Origin: Azotosporobacter soli
GTDB lineage: Bacteria > Bacillota > Negativicutes > SG130
Direction: 5' to 3'
DNA: 64,000 bases
NCBI RefSeq assembly: GCF_030542965.1
Contig: NZ_JAUAOA010000001.1
Location: forward strand, 372,001-436,000
Shown: piece by piece, positions 53,892-62,877 of the stretch
Layout: every line of letters begins with the position of its first letter
Position numbering within the stretch: the stretch's first letter is position 1
Program-made: the position numbers and the translations under genes
Notes under the pieces: generated by a model
The model's database searches: none
Told to the model about the DNA's origin: nothing
Seen by the model: the letters and a program-made list of their open reading frames with translations, nothing else

Positions 53892-55880
53892 GTGCTGAAA
53901 GATTTGCGAATCAAACACAAGCTGTTGCTGATCATCCTGGGCTTTCTCTTGATCGGCTGCGGCATCGCGGTCGGATTGTCCATGTATTTTTTTAACCAAT
54001 ATGTCGCTGCCGCAACGCAAGAAGGCGCGGCCAACGGCATGGAAGGCCTTGACGCTTTGCTGAGCGAGTACCGTTCAAACGCAGAAAGCAGCGCTAAGCT
54101 TCTAGCTGCCAATCCCGATCTGATCGCCGCACTGGCGTCGAAAGACAGTGCACGACTCTTGCAAGTTGCCGCACCGCTCGCCAAACATACCTCACTCGAT
54201 TTTCTTACGCTCACCGATGAGAGCGGCACCGTCATCGCACGCACGCATGCACCAGAAAAAAAAGGTGACGTCATTACCGACGAAGCCAACGTCAAACAAG
54301 CACTGCAAGGTAAAATCACTTCTGCCGTTGAACCCGGCACAACGGTGAAACTTGGCATCCGTTCCGGCGTACCCGTCCTTGACAAATCCGGCAAATTGGT
54401 CGGCGTGGTCAGTGCCGGTTATAATCTTGGCAAGGATTCGCTCGTCGATACGATCAAAGAACTTTATAATGTCGACGCCACCGTTTTCAACGCGGATGTC
54501 CGTCTCTCTTCCACGATCCAAAAGGATGGCAAACGGATCGTCGATACCAAACTGGATCCGGCAATCGCCGCGGTCGTTCTTGGCCAGGCTAAACCATACC
54601 AAGGTACGGCTCAAATTCTCGGCCAACCCTATCGCACCGTCTATAAGCCGCTGCTCGATTGGGAAAACAAACCGGTCGGTCTTATTTTCAGCGGCAAAAG
54701 TCAGCAGAGCGCGAATAGCGTCCTGCAAAATTTCCTCTTTTCCGTCGGCGGAGCCGTTCTCCTGATTCTCCTTTTTTGCAGCGGCGCGGCAGTCTTGTTG
54801 GCAGCCCAAATCACCCGTCCGATCGAGACATTGCAAAACTTGATGAGCAACGCCAGCCATGGCGATTTATCGGTCCGTTCGAGCGTGACGTCGCGCGATG
54901 AAATCGGCCTGCTTTCCGCCAGTTTCAACGCGATGCTGGAACGCCAGGCACGCGTCGTTTCGGTCGTAAAGAGCTCCGCGCTCGAAATCGCCGCCGCGTC
55001 GGAAGAACTGGCGGCCACCAGCGAAGAAGCGAACGCCAACAGTCATCTGATCGCCGACGACGTAGCGGGCATCGCGAAGAGCAGCGATGTCGAATTCAAT
55101 GCAATGATGGAAGTATCCCGCGTTTTGCTGGAACTGTCGTCTTTGATTCAACTGGCTAAAGACCGTTCTTTGAGCGCTAAGGAAAGTTCGCAAAATACGC
55201 TGCAATCGGCACAACATGGACGCAGCACGGTAAATGATGCGATCGGCATCATGGGGAGGATTCAGGCGCAGGCGACCGAAGGCGAAACCGTGATCCGTCA
55301 GATGGATGAATACGCGAGCAAGATCGGCGACATCAGCAGCACGATTACCAATATTGCGCAACAGACCAATCTGCTGGCGCTTAACGCGGCGATCGAAGCG
55401 GCGCGAGCCGGCGAGGCCGGACGCGGTTTTGCGGTCGTCGCCAATGAAGTCTCCAAGCTGGCCGAACAGTCGAATCGCGAAGCGGGCGAGGTCGGCTCTT
55501 TGGTCGAAAAAGTCTCAGCCTGTACAAGCCAGGCGGTTCTTGCCATGCAGGAAACACGCCGCCAGGTCGAGGAAGGCGGCGTAAGCGTCAATAACGCCGG
55601 TGAAGCATTGTCGAGCATACTGACTGCGGTCAATGCGACGGTCACTGAAATGCAGTCGATCTCTGAAATCACGAGCGAAGAAGTGGCTTCCTCAGAAAAA
55701 ATCGTCAACCTGATTAATACGGTCTCCAGCAAGATCGAAGAAACCAAAGGAGCGGCGGAGCATACCGAAGGTGCCGCCAGTGAAGTCGCGCAAGGCATCG
55801 AGACGGTGGCAGCCAGTACGGAAGAACTGGCTGCACTGTCGAACGAACTGCGTCGTTCGGTTGAAATGTTCAAAGTATAG
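53892..55880 (+). CDS. Methyl-accepting chemotaxis protein with Cache-type sensor
   Basis: A 662-residue chemoreceptor. Transmembrane helix 1 (about 10-32), an extracytoplasmic Cache-like region of about 250 residues, helix 2 (about 284-310), HAMP, and a full signalling domain with the tip [20 protein letters not shown]. The start is a GTG with GGGGAG ahead. It lies 20 bases after the PP2C/ATPase gene and 11 before the STAS gene, so its output may go into that partner switch as well as, or instead of, CheA. Confidence 0.92.
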
Positions 55881-55891
55881 GAGGGAAAACG

Positions 55892-56191
55892 ATGATGTCC
55901 ATGAGAAACGGAGACAACTATCTGAAACTCGAGCCCAAAGGCGGCATTTACGTACGTGAAGCGGGCAAACTGCGCGAAGAGATGCTGGCCGCTTTCGAGA
56001 AGGGACAGTTTCATTTCGACCTGGACTTGAGCGGCGTAACGCATATCGACAGTGCGGGACTCGGCGTGCTGATCCAGATTCATAAACGGGTCGAACCGAA
56101 AGGCGGCGAAGTCGTGATTCGGGGCTTAAGCGGCGCAGTCAAAGAACTCTTTTATCTGACGCGCATGGATCGCACGTTTCGGATCGAGTAA
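55892..56191 (+). CDS. STAS-domain anti-sigma factor antagonist-like protein
   Basis: A 99-residue STAS protein. The phosphorylatable serine is S54 in HIDSAGLGVLI, as in SpoIIAA and RsbV. It would be phosphorylated by the ATPase domain and dephosphorylated by the PP2C domain of the 52024 protein. No sigma factor gene is nearby, so the downstream target may be another protein. AGGAGG precedes the ATG. Confidence 0.9.
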   Translation: MMSMRNGDNYLKLEPKGGIYVREAGKLREEMLAAFEKGQFHFDLDLSGVTHIDSAGLGVLIQIHKRVEPKGGEVVIRGLSGAVKELFYLTRMDRTFRIE

Positions 56192-56987: not shown

Positions 56988-58232
56988 ATGACGCTAGACA
57001 AAACCAGTCTTGTAAACCGTTTTCTTTCGTACACCCGCTTCGACAGCCGTTCCGACGCTGCGTTCGACTGCTGTCCCAGCACACCGGGGCAATTGGTATT
57101 GGCCAAACATCTGGCCGCTGAATTGAAGGAACTGGGCCTTAGCGACATCCGGCTCGATGAGAACGGTTATCTTACGGCCACATTGCCGGCCAACGGCTGC
57201 CCAAATGCGCCGACCGTCGGCCTGCTGGCCCATTTCGACACCGCGCCGGATTTTGCCGGCAAGGACGTCAAGGCCAGAATCGTTTCTTATCAGGGCGGCG
57301 ACATCACACTCAACGAGGATCCTGCGATCATCATGACAACGGCCGACTTTCCCGAACTGAGTCAATATGAGGGACAAGATATCATCGTCACCGACGGCAC
57401 GACTCTGCTCGGCGCGGACGACAAAGCCGGCATCGCCGCAATCGTTAGTGCCATCGAATATCTCATCCATCACCCTGAAATCCCGCATGGCACGATCCGT
57501 CTTGGCTTCACGCCGGACGAAGAAATCGGGCGCGGCGCCGACCGTTTTGATGTAGCCGCTTTTGGCGCCGACTTCGCCTATACGATCGACGGCGAGGGAC
57601 TCGGCGGCATCGAATACGAGAACTTCAACGCCGCCAACGCCAAATTGCTTATACATGGACGCAACGTCCATCCGGGTGCATCGAAGCACAAGATGATCAA
57701 TGCGCTGACGATCGCCGCAGAATTCCAAATGATGCTGCCGGCCGGAGAGAAGCCGGAATACACCGCTGATTATGAAGGATTTTTTCATGTGAACCAAATG
57801 AATGGTTCGGTGGAAAGCGCCGAATTGAAGCTGTTGATCCGCGATCATGACCGCGCCAATTTTGAAAAGCGCAAGCGCTACCTCACTTCTCTCGCGCAAT
57901 TACTGAACGAAAAATATGGTTCCGGCACGTTGGAACTGGAGATCAAGGATTCTTATTATAATATGCGTGAACAAATCGAACCGGTTTTTCATGTCGTCGA
58001 GCTTGCCTGCGAAGCGATGAAGGCAGTCGGTCTAGAGCCGAAGACTACGCCGATTCGCGGCGGTACCGACGGAGCGCGTCTATCTTTTATGGGTCTGCCT
58101 TGTCCGAATCTGTTTAGCGGCGGTCATAACGCCCATGGCAAATTTGAATTCCTGCCGGTTCCTTCCCTGCTCAAAGTCGCCGAAACCGCAGTTGAGGTTC
58201 TGAAACTGGCCGGTCAAATAAAAAAGAAATAG
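56988..58232 (+). CDS. pepT: Peptidase T (tripeptide aminopeptidase)
   Basis: A 414-residue M20B zinc aminopeptidase. GLLAHFDTAPD gives the first histidine and aspartate, LLGADDKAG the bridging aspartate, TPDEEIGRG the catalytic glutamates, and GGHNAHGKFEF the last ligand. It removes the N-terminal residue from tripeptides in the cytoplasm. AGAAAGGAG precedes the ATG. The OPT transporter gene begins 10 bases after it, giving an import-and-cleave pair. Confidence 0.95.
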   Translation: MTLDKTSLVNRFLSYTRFDSRSDAAFDCCPSTPGQLVLAKHLAAELKELGLSDIRLDENGYLTATLPANGCPNAPTVGLLAHFDTAPDFAGKDVKARIVSYQGGDITLNEDPAIIMTTADFPELSQYEGQDIIVTDGTTLLGADDKAGIAAIVSAIEYLIHHPEIPHGTIRLGFTPDEEIGRGADRFDVAAFGADFAYTIDGEGLGGIEYENFNAANAKLLIHGRNVHPGASKHKMINALTIAAEFQMMLPAGEKPEYTADYEGFFHVNQMNGSVESAELKLLIRDHDRANFEKRKRYLTSLAQLLNEKYGSGTLELEIKDSYYNMREQIEPVFHVVELACEAMKAVGLEPKTTPIRGGTDGARLSFMGLPCPNLFSGGHNAHGKFEFLPVPSLLKVAETAVEVLKLAGQIKKK

Positions 58233-58242
58233 GAGGAATATC

Positions 58243-60183
58243 ATGTCTGAACACAAACACAGCAGCGCACCTGCCGAACCGCCAATGTCACCGCATCAGG
58301 AGTACCAGGAAATCAACCCTTATGTCGTATTTTGGGGTTTGTTTTACGCCGCGTTATTCGCGCTCGCGGTCGGCTATCTTTGTCTGAAGATCGGCCAGAC
58401 GGTCGACGCTTTCGCACCGGTCTCCATTTTGGCTATGGGCATGGGCGCGGTTTTGAAGCGCAAGAACGCGTTTCCTGAAAACGTGCATATCCAGGCTATC
58501 GCCAGCGCCGGCACGAATATCTTAGGCGGCGCAATGTTCATCATTCCGGCCTTGTTCATTCTTAACTCGCCGACAATGAACTTCTTCCAGTTGGCCGCGC
58601 CGATCGTACTCGGCGGCATCCTCGGCGTCTTTCTCTCCACCATCTTCCGCCGTTATTTCTGCGAAGAGATGGCGGACGTTTATCCATTCCCTGCCGGACG
58701 CGCTGCGGCCGAGGTACTGACCTCCGGCGAAGGCAGCAAAGCCAAGCTGATGATCTTCAGCGGCGCGATTGCACTGATCTATGATTTCATCCTCAACAGC
58801 ATCGGCTGGTGGCAAGAGATCATCTCGAGCGCCACGTTCTCGCTTGGTCAACAAATCGCTTCGAAATATAAACTGGTCTTCAACCTCGACAACGAATCGG
58901 CGCTGCTCGGCATCGGTTATTTCACCGGTCTGCGTTATGCGGCAATCATCGCCGCCGGTTCGTTCTTCTCCTGGTTCGTTTGCATTCCGGTTCTTTATTA
59001 TCTGGCCGGCGATCATCACATGATCCTGAAGGGTAAAGATATCCTCTTGGCTGATGCGCCGATCCGGGCGGTATTTTCCACCTATGTCCGCCATATCGGC
59101 ATCGGCATGCTTGCAATGGCCGGTATCATCGGCCTCTTATCGATGTCCAGCGTCATCAAGAACGTAGTCCGCGCAGCGATCGCCGAAATGTCGAAAGCGC
59201 CGAATGCGGCGCGTCAGACGCTGCTGCGTACGCAACGCGACATCCCAATGCCGCTGCTTGTCGCAGGCATCTTCGGCATCCTGCTCTTGTTCACGCTGTA
59301 TTTCCACGTTTACTTCTCCGAAAGCATGCTGCAAACGGGACTCGCACTCGGCATCGTGCTCATCTTCACCTTTTTGCTCTCGGTCGTCGGCATCAGTTCG
59401 ATCGCCTTTACCGGTACCGAACCGGTCTCCGGCATGACGATCTTTATGATCATCGTCGCCTCGGTCGTTTTGGGCAGCGCCGGCATGCATGGCGACATGG
59501 GCATCGTTGCAATCCTGATGATGGCCTCCTTCCTCTGCACCACGCTGGCCGTGGCCGGCAACTTTATGTCTGAACTGAAGGTAGCGAACCTTCTCGGCGC
59601 GACGCCGCGTAAGATGGAACAATGGCAGTTGGTATCGGCAGCAGTATCCGCCCTGGTCTCGATCGGCGTCATCTTGCTGCTCAATCAGGCTTATGGCTTC
59701 GTCGGTCCGAGCGCACTGCCCGCACCGCAAGCCAACGCAATGGCCGCAATCGTTAAACCGCTGATGGAAGGCGGTGCCGCACATTGGCCGCTCTACATGG
59801 CCGGCGCGTTCTTCGCCGTCATCCTTTGGATGGTGAAAGTTCCGCCGCTGGCGTTCGCACTCGGCGCTTACCTGCCGATGGAAATCAACACGCCGCTCTT
59901 AGTCGGCGGCTTGATCTCCTACTTGGTCACGAAGAGCAGCAGCAATGAGAAGCTCAGCGCACTGCGCTTCAATGTCGGCAGCACGATCGCTTCCGGTCTG
60001 ATCGCAGGCGGCGCACTCGGCAGTCTGCTCAGCGCGGTCGTACGCATCCTGGGTTATGATTTCTTCCTCGAAGCCTGGTCGGAAACGCCGGCCGCAACCT
60101 ATCTCGGCGTCGTGGCCTACCTTGCACTTTGCGCTCTGCTTTACGGCAAAGCGGTAAGCGTCAAGAAAGTCGCTGCCGAATAA
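58243..60183 (+). CDS. OPT family oligopeptide transporter
   Basis: A 646-residue membrane protein with about 15 or more helices. NPYVVFWGLFYAALFALAVG and the LKIGQTVDAFAPVSILAMG segment are characteristic of bacterial OPT proteins, which import small peptides with protons. It follows pepT in one operon. A convergent cytoplasmic chemoreceptor with a peptide-binding domain lies 58 bases beyond its stop. Confidence 0.92.
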   Translation: MSEHKHSSAPAEPPMSPHQEYQEINPYVVFWGLFYAALFALAVGYLCLKIGQTVDAFAPVSILAMGMGAVLKRKNAFPENVHIQAIASAGTNILGGAMFIIPALFILNSPTMNFFQLAAPIVLGGILGVFLSTIFRRYFCEEMADVYPFPAGRAAAEVLTSGEGSKAKLMIFSGAIALIYDFILNSIGWWQEIISSATFSLGQQIASKYKLVFNLDNESALLGIGYFTGLRYAAIIAAGSFFSWFVCIPVLYYLAGDHHMILKGKDILLADAPIRAVFSTYVRHIGIGMLAMAGIIGLLSMSSVIKNVVRAAIAEMSKAPNAARQTLLRTQRDIPMPLLVAGIFGILLLFTLYFHVYFSESMLQTGLALGIVLIFTFLLSVVGISSIAFTGTEPVSGMTIFMIIVASVVLGSAGMHGDMGIVAILMMASFLCTTLAVAGNFMSELKVANLLGATPRKMEQWQLVSAAVSALVSIGVILLLNQAYGFVGPSALPAPQANAMAAIVKPLMEGGAAHWPLYMAGAFFAVILWMVKVPPLAFALGAYLPMEINTPLLVGGLISYLVTKSSSNEKLSALRFNVGSTIASGLIAGGALGSLLSAVVRILGYDFFLEAWSETPAATYLGVVAYLALCALLYGKAVSVKKVAAE

Positions 60184-60197
60184 AAGGCGCCGATAAA

Positions 60198-60239
60198 AAA
60201 CGGTCCCGACAGGCAAAAAGCCTGCCGGGACCGTTTCTC
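60198..60239. terminator. Bidirectional terminator
   Basis: AAACGGTCCCG-CAGGC pairs with GCCTG-CGGGACCGTTT around AAAAA between convergent genes. Confidence 0.9.
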
Positions 60240-60241
60240 TG

Positions 60242-62704
60242 TTATTCGACGATTACGTCATCGTACTTGAAGAGGCCGAGCGGCGTCAGTTTGAGGCCGC
60301 TGACGCCTTTGCGGCTGACGACGCCGAGGCTGGGGTGATAAATGAAAATCCAGGGCGCGTCCTTTACGATTTCCCTTTGGATTTCGCGGTACTGTTCCTT
60401 GCGACGCTTCGGATTGATGATCGTCATCGCGTCCGCAAGTTTCCGGTTGACCGATTCGTTGTTGTAACTGGAACGGTTCGTCTTCAGGCCCGGCGCAAAG
60501 AGCGGTTGCAGAAAATTATCAGCATCTCCGGTATCGGCAATCCAACGCGCCACATATAAATCACAGCGCTCGCGGATCAGATTGACGTCGAGATAGTTTT
60601 TGAACGGCACGGTCACAAGCGAACATTTGACGCCGACTGCTTCCAGATCCTGCACCAGCAGTTTCGTCATCTGATTGAACACAGAATTTTCCATGCCTTC
60701 GCGATACAAAATGCGCAGCGGCTGACCGGTAGCCTGTGCGCCAGCCTGCGCGATCAGCTCCTTGGCTTTACGGACATCATATTCATAGCCGCGCAGTCCC
60801 GTATCCTCGAGAATCGCGGGCGGCAACGGCCCTTTCGATTCACTGCCTAAACCGCCCAGCACCTGCGCGATGATCTTCTGCTTGTCCACCGCATGGTTCA
60901 GCGCCTGACGCAGCCTGACGTCTTTCAGCCACGGCGAGGCGGACATCATGTTAAATCCCGCATAATAGCTGCCCATGATGCTGCTCGGCCGGATGACGGT
61001 TTCCGGACGGCCTTTCAGCTTGTCGAGCGATGCCTTATTGTCGACGAAGATGAAGTCGTACTTTCCGGCGATAAAGCCATCCGCCGGATCCTCGCCCGAC
61101 AAGTCGACCCGTACTTTCGCAGCATACGCCTCACCGTTGAAGAATTCAGGGAACGACGTCATGTCGCAGTGATCCTCTTTCACGTCGAGGATATAGGGTC
61201 CGCAACCGACGAGCTTACCGCGTTCCACTTCTTCTTTCGCAAGGACGGCGCAGTAAAACTGGCCGAGATTGAGCAGGAAACCGCTGTAGGGCGAGGAAAG
61301 GCGCAAACTGATGCGATAGCGGTCGAGCACCTCTATGCCCGCCACGCTCGATGCGCGTCCGGCCATGAATTCTTCCGCCCCGGCCACATATTGCAGGCAC
61401 CAGGAATTCGGCGAATTCGTCTTCGGACTGAGCAGCATCTCATACGTATAGCGGATGTCTTCCGCCGTGATCTCCCGCCCATTGTGAAACTTTGCGCCGC
61501 GGCGCAAATTGAATACCCAGGTATCTTCGCCTTCCAGATGCCAGCTTTTCGCAATGCCCGGCGACAGATTCCCGGCCGCGTCGATCGACAGCAAGCCGGC
61601 ATGCGAATTCGAGAGGATGTGGCCGCCGATGAATTCAGACGACATCGTCGGATTAAAGGTTGAGATCTCTTTGGGCAGACAAGTGCGCAGCGTCACGCCC
61701 AAAGAAGAGGGACTTTCGACTTTGTTCAGCATATGCTCAGTAAGATTTTTCAGGTTGCCGGACGCATCGCTGAGCGCCGCCAGTGAGGTATTGACGAACT
61801 GGATATAAAGCGACGCCAGTTCCGTATCGCTCGTCAGGCGGCGGAACGCCTCGCCCATGCTCTGCGTCGAGTCGACCACGTTTTCGAGGCTGCTCGTCTG
61901 TTTCGAGATCGCCATGTGGATCTCTTCGTAGACATCGCTGTTCTTCTTCACCGTATCGATGATCGTGTTGAACACCTTGGCTGTTCCGTCAGCCGTTTCC
62001 GAGCCGTCTGCCACGCGATGAATGATCGTATCCATCGATTCAAGCGTACGCGCCAGACTGCAATTGATCTCTTGGATCGTTTGGTTGATATAGCCGATCG
62101 ATTCATCGCTGCGCTGCGCCAGGTTTTTCACTTCCTGCGCGACGACCGCGAAACCGCGTCCGGCTTCACCGGCCCGCGCCGCTTCGATCGAGGCGTTGAG
62201 TGATAACAAATTCGTGCTCTCGGTGATGTCCTTGATCACGCTGAGCAGCTGGTTGATATGCGCCGCCTGGCCGTTCAGATCGTTGACCACGCTTTTGGCC
62301 GCTTCCACCGCCTGACGGATTTCGTTCATCGCGCGTATCGATTCGCCGACGGCGACGCTGCCTTCCTGCGCCACATCGATCGTTTGCCGGGCGATATGCT
62401 TCGAACTTTCCGTGCTGGCGAACACTTCTTGCGCCAGCGCCGAATATTGGGTGATCTCATCGACGACCTTGTCGATGCTTTCCATCTGCCGTTCCACCGA
62501 ACCGGCGATGCTGTCCGTAATCTCAATCAGGCTCTCGGCGGCGATGCCGGTCTCTTCGATCTTATTGCCGATCTTCGCGACCACGCATTTTTGATTATGC
62601 TTCAGCGTCGCCAGCTCATCGCCGCTCTGCTTCGCAAGCGTCTGTTTTTCCGGCACGTCCCGTACCACATCTTCGGCCTGTCGTTTTTTAAAAGAAAAAA
62701 ACAT
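60242..62704 (-). CDS. Cytoplasmic chemoreceptor fused to an OppA-like (SBP_bac_5) domain
   Basis: An 820-residue fusion. Residues about 40-330 form a methyl-accepting signalling coiled coil with an intact tip ([19 protein letters not shown], about 161-179). From about 336 to the end runs a family 5 extracellular solute-binding domain ([52 protein letters not shown]). There is no signal peptide, no transmembrane helix and no HAMP, so the peptide-binding domain is inside the cell. SgrR shows that this domain can work as a cytoplasmic ligand sensor. The ATG at 62704 follows GGTGGGG. It is convergent with pepT-OPT, suggesting it senses imported peptides or related solutes. Confidence 0.92.
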
Positions 62705-62877
62705 ATCCGTCCCCACCTTCTTCGCTCCGTCTTTCCTGGCAACCCGTTATCCGTTTTTGTGCTCACGTTCCTTATTATATTTCATTTTACGACAAGATTC
62801 TTCTGAAAATTCAACTTATCTAATTTTCGTTCACTCCTCACTACCCGTCGCTCTTTTTATTGTTCAAAGCTGACAAT

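Follow-up and report, generated by a model that had tools for sequence, protein, structure and literature searches.

A soluble chemoreceptor fused to an SBP_bac_5 domain in Azotosporobacter soli, a probable sensor of intracellular amine-bearing solutes

Introduction

By the textbooks, SBP domains work outside the cytoplasm, and a separate receptor normally relays their chemotaxis signal across the membrane. In the 64,000-nucleotide stretch of Azotosporobacter soli DNA analysed here (the window) a single gene joins an MCP signalling half to an SBP_bac_5 domain. This raises the question of where such a protein resides, what its binding-protein half recognizes and which output it controls. We read it, with a probability of roughly two thirds, as a dimeric, fully cytoplasmic chemoreceptor in which an intracellular amine-bearing solute would close the SBP lobes and act on CheA, with taxis as the likely output. 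If this is true, bacteria can steer by an intracellular nutrient level using a binding-protein domain. Being soluble, a single chain and equipped with a ligand domain that is well understood, the receptor is also attractive for studying how a signal passes along the MCP hairpin.

The fusion gene and its product

The MCP-SBP_bac_5 fusion is encoded on the minus strand, from 62704 to 60242, in one unbroken frame of 820 amino acids that starts with ATG. The ORF listing placed its start at a GTG at position 62716. The ATG at 62704 is preferred because a purine-rich ribosome-binding stretch lies ahead of it (gaaggtggggacggatATG, read from the sequence) and because the fusions of relatives begin with MFWSKK or MLFWSKK at the matching position of the alignment. 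The same two observations bear out the coordinates 60242-62704 given in the earlier note. Comparisons were made within a deduplicated set of 41 sequences, namely this fusion and 40 full-length relatives of the same layout. A frameshift, a chance join and an assembly join were rejected as origins of the frame on the ground of those 40 other fusions.

Pfam assigned MCPsignal (PF00015) to residues 104-283 (E 4.8e-38, 131 bits; curated cut-off 34.6 bits) and SBP_bac_5 (PF00496) to residues 380-739 (E 4.2e-63, 214 bits; curated cut-off 32.4 bits), and both domains were matched in all 41 fusions. No HAMP domain was found in the protein by Pfam. A search for hydrophobic segments found none, the highest 19-residue Kyte-Doolittle mean being 1.19. 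At the N-terminus the 41 fusions have a median hydropathy of 0.32 (13-residue scale), versus 2.5-3.5 in 17 stand-alone SBPs taken as control, most of which also carry a lipobox. One outlying fusion (L015) has a value of 2.3, which was put down to an automatic start called too far upstream. A loose lipobox pattern was matched by two fusions, both devoid of a hydrophobic stretch. The protein has no export signal and differs in N-terminal hydropathy from the control SBPs; like a soluble chemoreceptor, it has neither a transmembrane helix nor a signal peptide. The possibility of a missed export signal was rejected, the hydropathy of the fusions being far from that of the stand-alone SBPs. With a soluble N-terminus and no signal peptide, membrane helix or HAMP domain, the fusion is most likely cytoplasmic. 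The absence of these three elements had already been noticed from the letters of the window, and hydropathy scan and Pfam agree on it. Pfam, the alignments and the structural model likewise uphold an intact MCP tip followed by a complete OppA-like domain.

An aromatic and basic start (MFWSKK, MFGLFNKN, MFKLWMKK) recurs family-wide within residues 1-12 (window positions 62669-62704); around it the N-terminal tails are otherwise unconserved in the alignment. These residues are of low confidence in the AlphaFold2 model of the fusion and could form a membrane-touching segment.

The chemoreceptor half

The AlphaFold2 model (mean pLDDT 84) has two long helices, residues 19-178 (160 residues) and 183-328 (146 residues), with the tip between them. 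This modelled coiled-coil hairpin, which contains the Pfam MCPsignal match, spans residues 19-328 (61721..62650, minus strand). The fusion matches the Thermotoga receptor 2ch7 in sequence over equal lengths on both sides of the tip. This match and the helix lengths suggest a long hairpin of the type common in Firmicutes. The kinase-control tip, residues 167-197 (62114..62206, minus strand), is intact and conserved as in the MCP family, many of its alignment columns being invariant. Residues 89-96 (62417..62440, minus strand) read ALAQEVFA, a Glu/Gln pair resembling a methylation site; such a motif occupies the same position in 37 of the 41 fusions, and methylation itself is predicted from it.

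All 18 carrier genomes sampled encode CheA, and all 18 encode flagellin. Control of CheA via CheW is predicted for the fusion from its tip, the presence of CheA in the carriers being a prerequisite only. In the window's genome (G000, 3.8 Mb) about 45 matches to the MCP domain exceed the cut-off.

Two tandem fusion genes lie back to back in four genomes of one genus (loci L018-L021, in G507, G412, G460 and G530). In the aligned member of each pair the tip has diverged to LALNASIQSAHAGQAG and the methylation motif is absent; these proteins may be a specialised receptor. Not all members of the family need therefore act through CheA alike.

Distribution and evolution of the fusion

At least five genomes in a 250-genome sample of the same class, this one included, carry a full-length fusion, the other four fusions being 58-59% identical to it. 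In 398 genomes of the phylum at least 13 more genomes carry full-length fusions of 31-42% identity; these counts are lower bounds, as scoring was limited to the best-ranked candidates per genome. Two family-specific peptides taken from the SBP half were searched against the GTDB species collection and hit 27 loci, all of them two-domain fusions; the patterns derive from fusions, and this SBP subfamily may also occur on its own. (An earlier contig scan with a single fusion protein as query had returned no locus.) The GTDB carriers are Clostridium thailandense, C. muellerianum, C. carboxidivorans and C. rhizosphaerae, Tissierella praeacuta and T. pigra, Caloramator australicus, members of Marinisporobacter, Sporomusaceae and Peptococcaceae, and others. 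Carriers thus span Negativicutes, Clostridium, Tissierella, Caloramator and other Bacillota. The spread is patchy within one bacterial family, where two of ten genomes have the fusion, and therefore points to loss or transfer.

Purifying selection acts on both halves of the protein. In close pairs dN/dS is mostly 0.03-0.18 for the MCP and for the SBP half, the highest value being 0.26 in one pair. Pairwise distances of the two halves are strongly correlated (Mantel r 0.955, with 0 of 2000 permutations as high). In the SBP-domain tree 38 of the 41 fusions stand on one branch (SH-aLRT 99), apart from the stand-alone SBPs; the other three belong to one distant genus and have a weakly supported placement. 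A single old fusion event would be the simplest, though unproven, reading.

The binding-protein half and its putative ligand

The complete SBP_bac_5 (OppA/DppA-like) domain occupies residues 338-820 (60245..61693, minus strand) and begins about nine residues past the end of the modelled coiled coil. It matches solved SBPs by sequence, and its model superimposes on DppA, OppA, MppA, DppE and GbpA with a Z of about 41 and an rmsd of 2-3 A across about 460-485 residues. Profile and two-lobed fold are thus both those of the PF00496 family.

The WIAD motif at residues 721-724 (60533..60544, minus strand) ends in D724, which aligns with D419 of OppA and D408 of DppA, the Asp residues that hold the alpha-amino group of the ligand. 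The Trp and the Asp of this W-x-A-D motif are each kept in 40 of the 41 fusions. R413, H371 and K307 of OppA and R355 of DppA read the C-terminal carboxylate of the peptide; their equivalents are not conserved in the fusions, in a region where the alignment is uncertain. Because these C-terminus contacts are not kept, a peptide and some other amine-bearing solute are both possible ligands. The retained anchor argues for an intracellular solute with a free amine, plausibly a short peptide or an amino-acid derivative.

We consider it possible, though well short of even odds, that the same receptor serves a non-nutrient ligand, be it a murein tripeptide, a glutathione-like thiol, an opine, nickel-histidine or another amine-bearing metabolite. 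All of these are bound by proteins of the family 5 fold; among the solved structures closest to the SBP part are binding proteins for glutathione, murein peptide, opines and Ni-histidine. The missing carboxylate contacts of OppA and DppA speak for such a ligand too. However, the sequence features favour none of murein tripeptide, thiol, opine or Ni-histidine, and the carriers are spread among Bacillota that include many fermenters of proteins and amino acids, which would fit peptides or amino acids at least equally well. A conserved neighbour that could name the ligand was sought near the fusion in 31 relative loci, and none was found beyond close relatives.

This silence of the neighbours, together with the recurrent aromatic-basic N-terminus that might touch the membrane, would also fit a domain that has ceased to bind a small solute and instead docks proteins or organises arrays, for example by contacting an importer from inside or fixing the receptor at a pole. 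We hold this to be unlikely, as the amine anchor is found in 40 of the 41 fusions and yet is lost in the cytoplasmic SgrR, and as the entire two-lobed fold is retained.

Proposed signalling and its output

In our preferred reading of the fusion as a cytoplasmic solute receptor, a long helix would begin at the N-terminus and extend to the tip that binds CheA and CheW, where the chain would reverse into a second helix; the family 5 SBP domain would sit at the hairpin end distant from the tip. The two SBP lobes would close on a solute within the cell that bears a free amino group and has been either imported or set free internally, a short peptide or a derivative of an amino acid being the most plausible candidate. 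This closure would be relayed along the coiled coil and alter the activity of CheA, and methylation near residue 92 would provide adaptation. Flagellar taxis would be the most likely output. We infer dimerization, the ligand, lobe closure as the signal, its transmission, the direction of the response and the taxis output from the features described above.

The fusion is conserved in many swimming, Clostridia-like bacteria, a hint that their steering depends in part on their internal state. A broader statement, that a widespread class of Bacillota chemoreceptors captured an Opp/Dpp-type SBP and uses it inside the cell to sense peptides or amino-acid derivatives, with taxis following the internal nutrient pool instead of the external concentration, is advanced tentatively, as slightly short of an even bet.

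A CheA-type pathway with an output other than swimming appears improbable. The window's genome has three matches to the CheA dimerisation domain, two of them weak, and so maybe more than one pathway, and the diverged tip of one family branch points the same way. Against this stand the flagellin and CheA genes found throughout the 18 carriers and the single CheA match in each of the 13 carriers outside Negativicutes.

Relation to known systems

Soluble MCPs with a C-terminal sensor are known, as illustrated by TlpD with its CZB domain (PMC12871147; PMC7390727). Like the fusion, Helicobacter pylori TlpD (PMC12871147) lacks a membrane segment and carries its sensor C-terminal to an MCP hairpin. 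That sensor is a zinc-binding four-helix bundle (CZB), whereas the fusion has a 480-residue two-lobed SBP. In addition, TlpD carries a PAS domain at its N-terminus, and its hairpin is shorter. Pfam found no CZB match in the fusion, which sets it apart from the TlpD type. Cytoplasmic SBP_bac_5 domains joined to a signalling output are found in SgrR/DsvR, transcription factors with an N-terminal HTH and a C-terminal SBP_bac_5 domain (PMC13060122). Their output is DNA binding, whereas that predicted for the fusion is CheA control, and the W-x-A-D amine anchor retained by the fusion is absent from E. coli SgrR. The fusion is also not of the SgrR type: no HTH was found in it by Pfam, and the NCBIfam SgrR model matched a short SBP stretch with 25 bits versus a cut-off of 476.

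OppA, DppA, MppA and GbpA have the same fold and amine anchor as the fusion; these proteins are exported and supply ABC transporters, whereas the fusion is unexported and no conserved transporter lies beside it in the 31 relative loci. Despite the common SBP_bac_5 domain, it does not count as an SBP of an ABC transporter. Chemotaxis sensing through SBPs is also the task of transmembrane MCPs that use a periplasmic SBP (PMC9602780). There the SBP is separate and extracytoplasmic, whereas in the fusion it is covalently attached and intracellular. According to an SBP survey, many of the matches to SBP profiles are sensor domains that belong to signalling proteins of the cytosol or the membrane (PMC9602780). 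No description of the MCP-SBP_bac_5 architecture was found in open-licence papers, a weak literature basis on which the combination would be a new architecture among soluble MCPs with a C-terminal ligand-binding domain.

Genomic neighbourhood

The gene had been described as lying beside peptide uptake genes and its product as an intracellular sensor that reads imported peptides. The first point holds for position alone: an OPT-family transporter gene (58243..60183, plus strand; Pfam OPT E 7.6e-81) and a gene for a PepT-like M20 peptidase (56988..58232, plus strand; Pfam M20) converge on the fusion gene. Between the OPT and fusion genes, a 17-bp inverted repeat with an AAAAA loop and A/T flanks (60198..60236) was read from the sequence. 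This repeat is a probable bidirectional terminator; a promoter and terminator scan yielded nothing, its strict terminator search not calling the repeat either. Being convergent and separated by the repeat, the OPT and M20 genes are not in an operon with the fusion.

Neither linkage is conserved. No OPT gene was found near the fusion in the 31 relative loci (about 6 kb reach, less at contig ends), and M20 gave one weak match among them. Genome-wide, OPT is absent from all 13 sampled carriers outside Negativicutes; within Negativicutes it is present in carriers and in many non-carriers. The neighbourhood is therefore no evidence for function, and the co-occurrence of the OPT/PepT pair with the fusion across genomes, which the earlier note proposed as a check, was not borne out. 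Of its sensor proposal, the cytoplasmic receptor with an intact tip and a selected SBP_bac_5 domain in genomes encoding CheA and flagellin (18/18) stands, a peptide as ligand is plausible, and the link to OPT and PepT is unsupported. That the fusion is a partner of these adjoining uptake genes has adjacency in the window in its favour and is very improbable given the convergent arrangement, the intervening repeat and the OPT-free loci and genomes of relatives. Coupling to OPT/PepT as a general rule was rejected, the linkage not being conserved in relatives.

Elsewhere, too, the fusion gene usually lacks a conserved partner. CheD, CheB, an MCP and a CheA are encoded within about 10 kb of the fusion in the Sporomusaceae genome UBA7701. 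An indolepyruvate-oxidoreductase-like gene is common to three Tissierellia MAG loci and a Na+ symporter-like gene to three fusion loci (both named by eye), too few loci in each case to support a conclusion. In two Clostridium species a soluble protein of 383 aa, with a weak resemblance to MCPs, is encoded convergently with the fusion (L044:7352-8503; L056:7566-8717). Within the window, a Cache-HAMP MCP gene directly followed by a gene for a small STAS-domain protein occupies positions 53892-56191.
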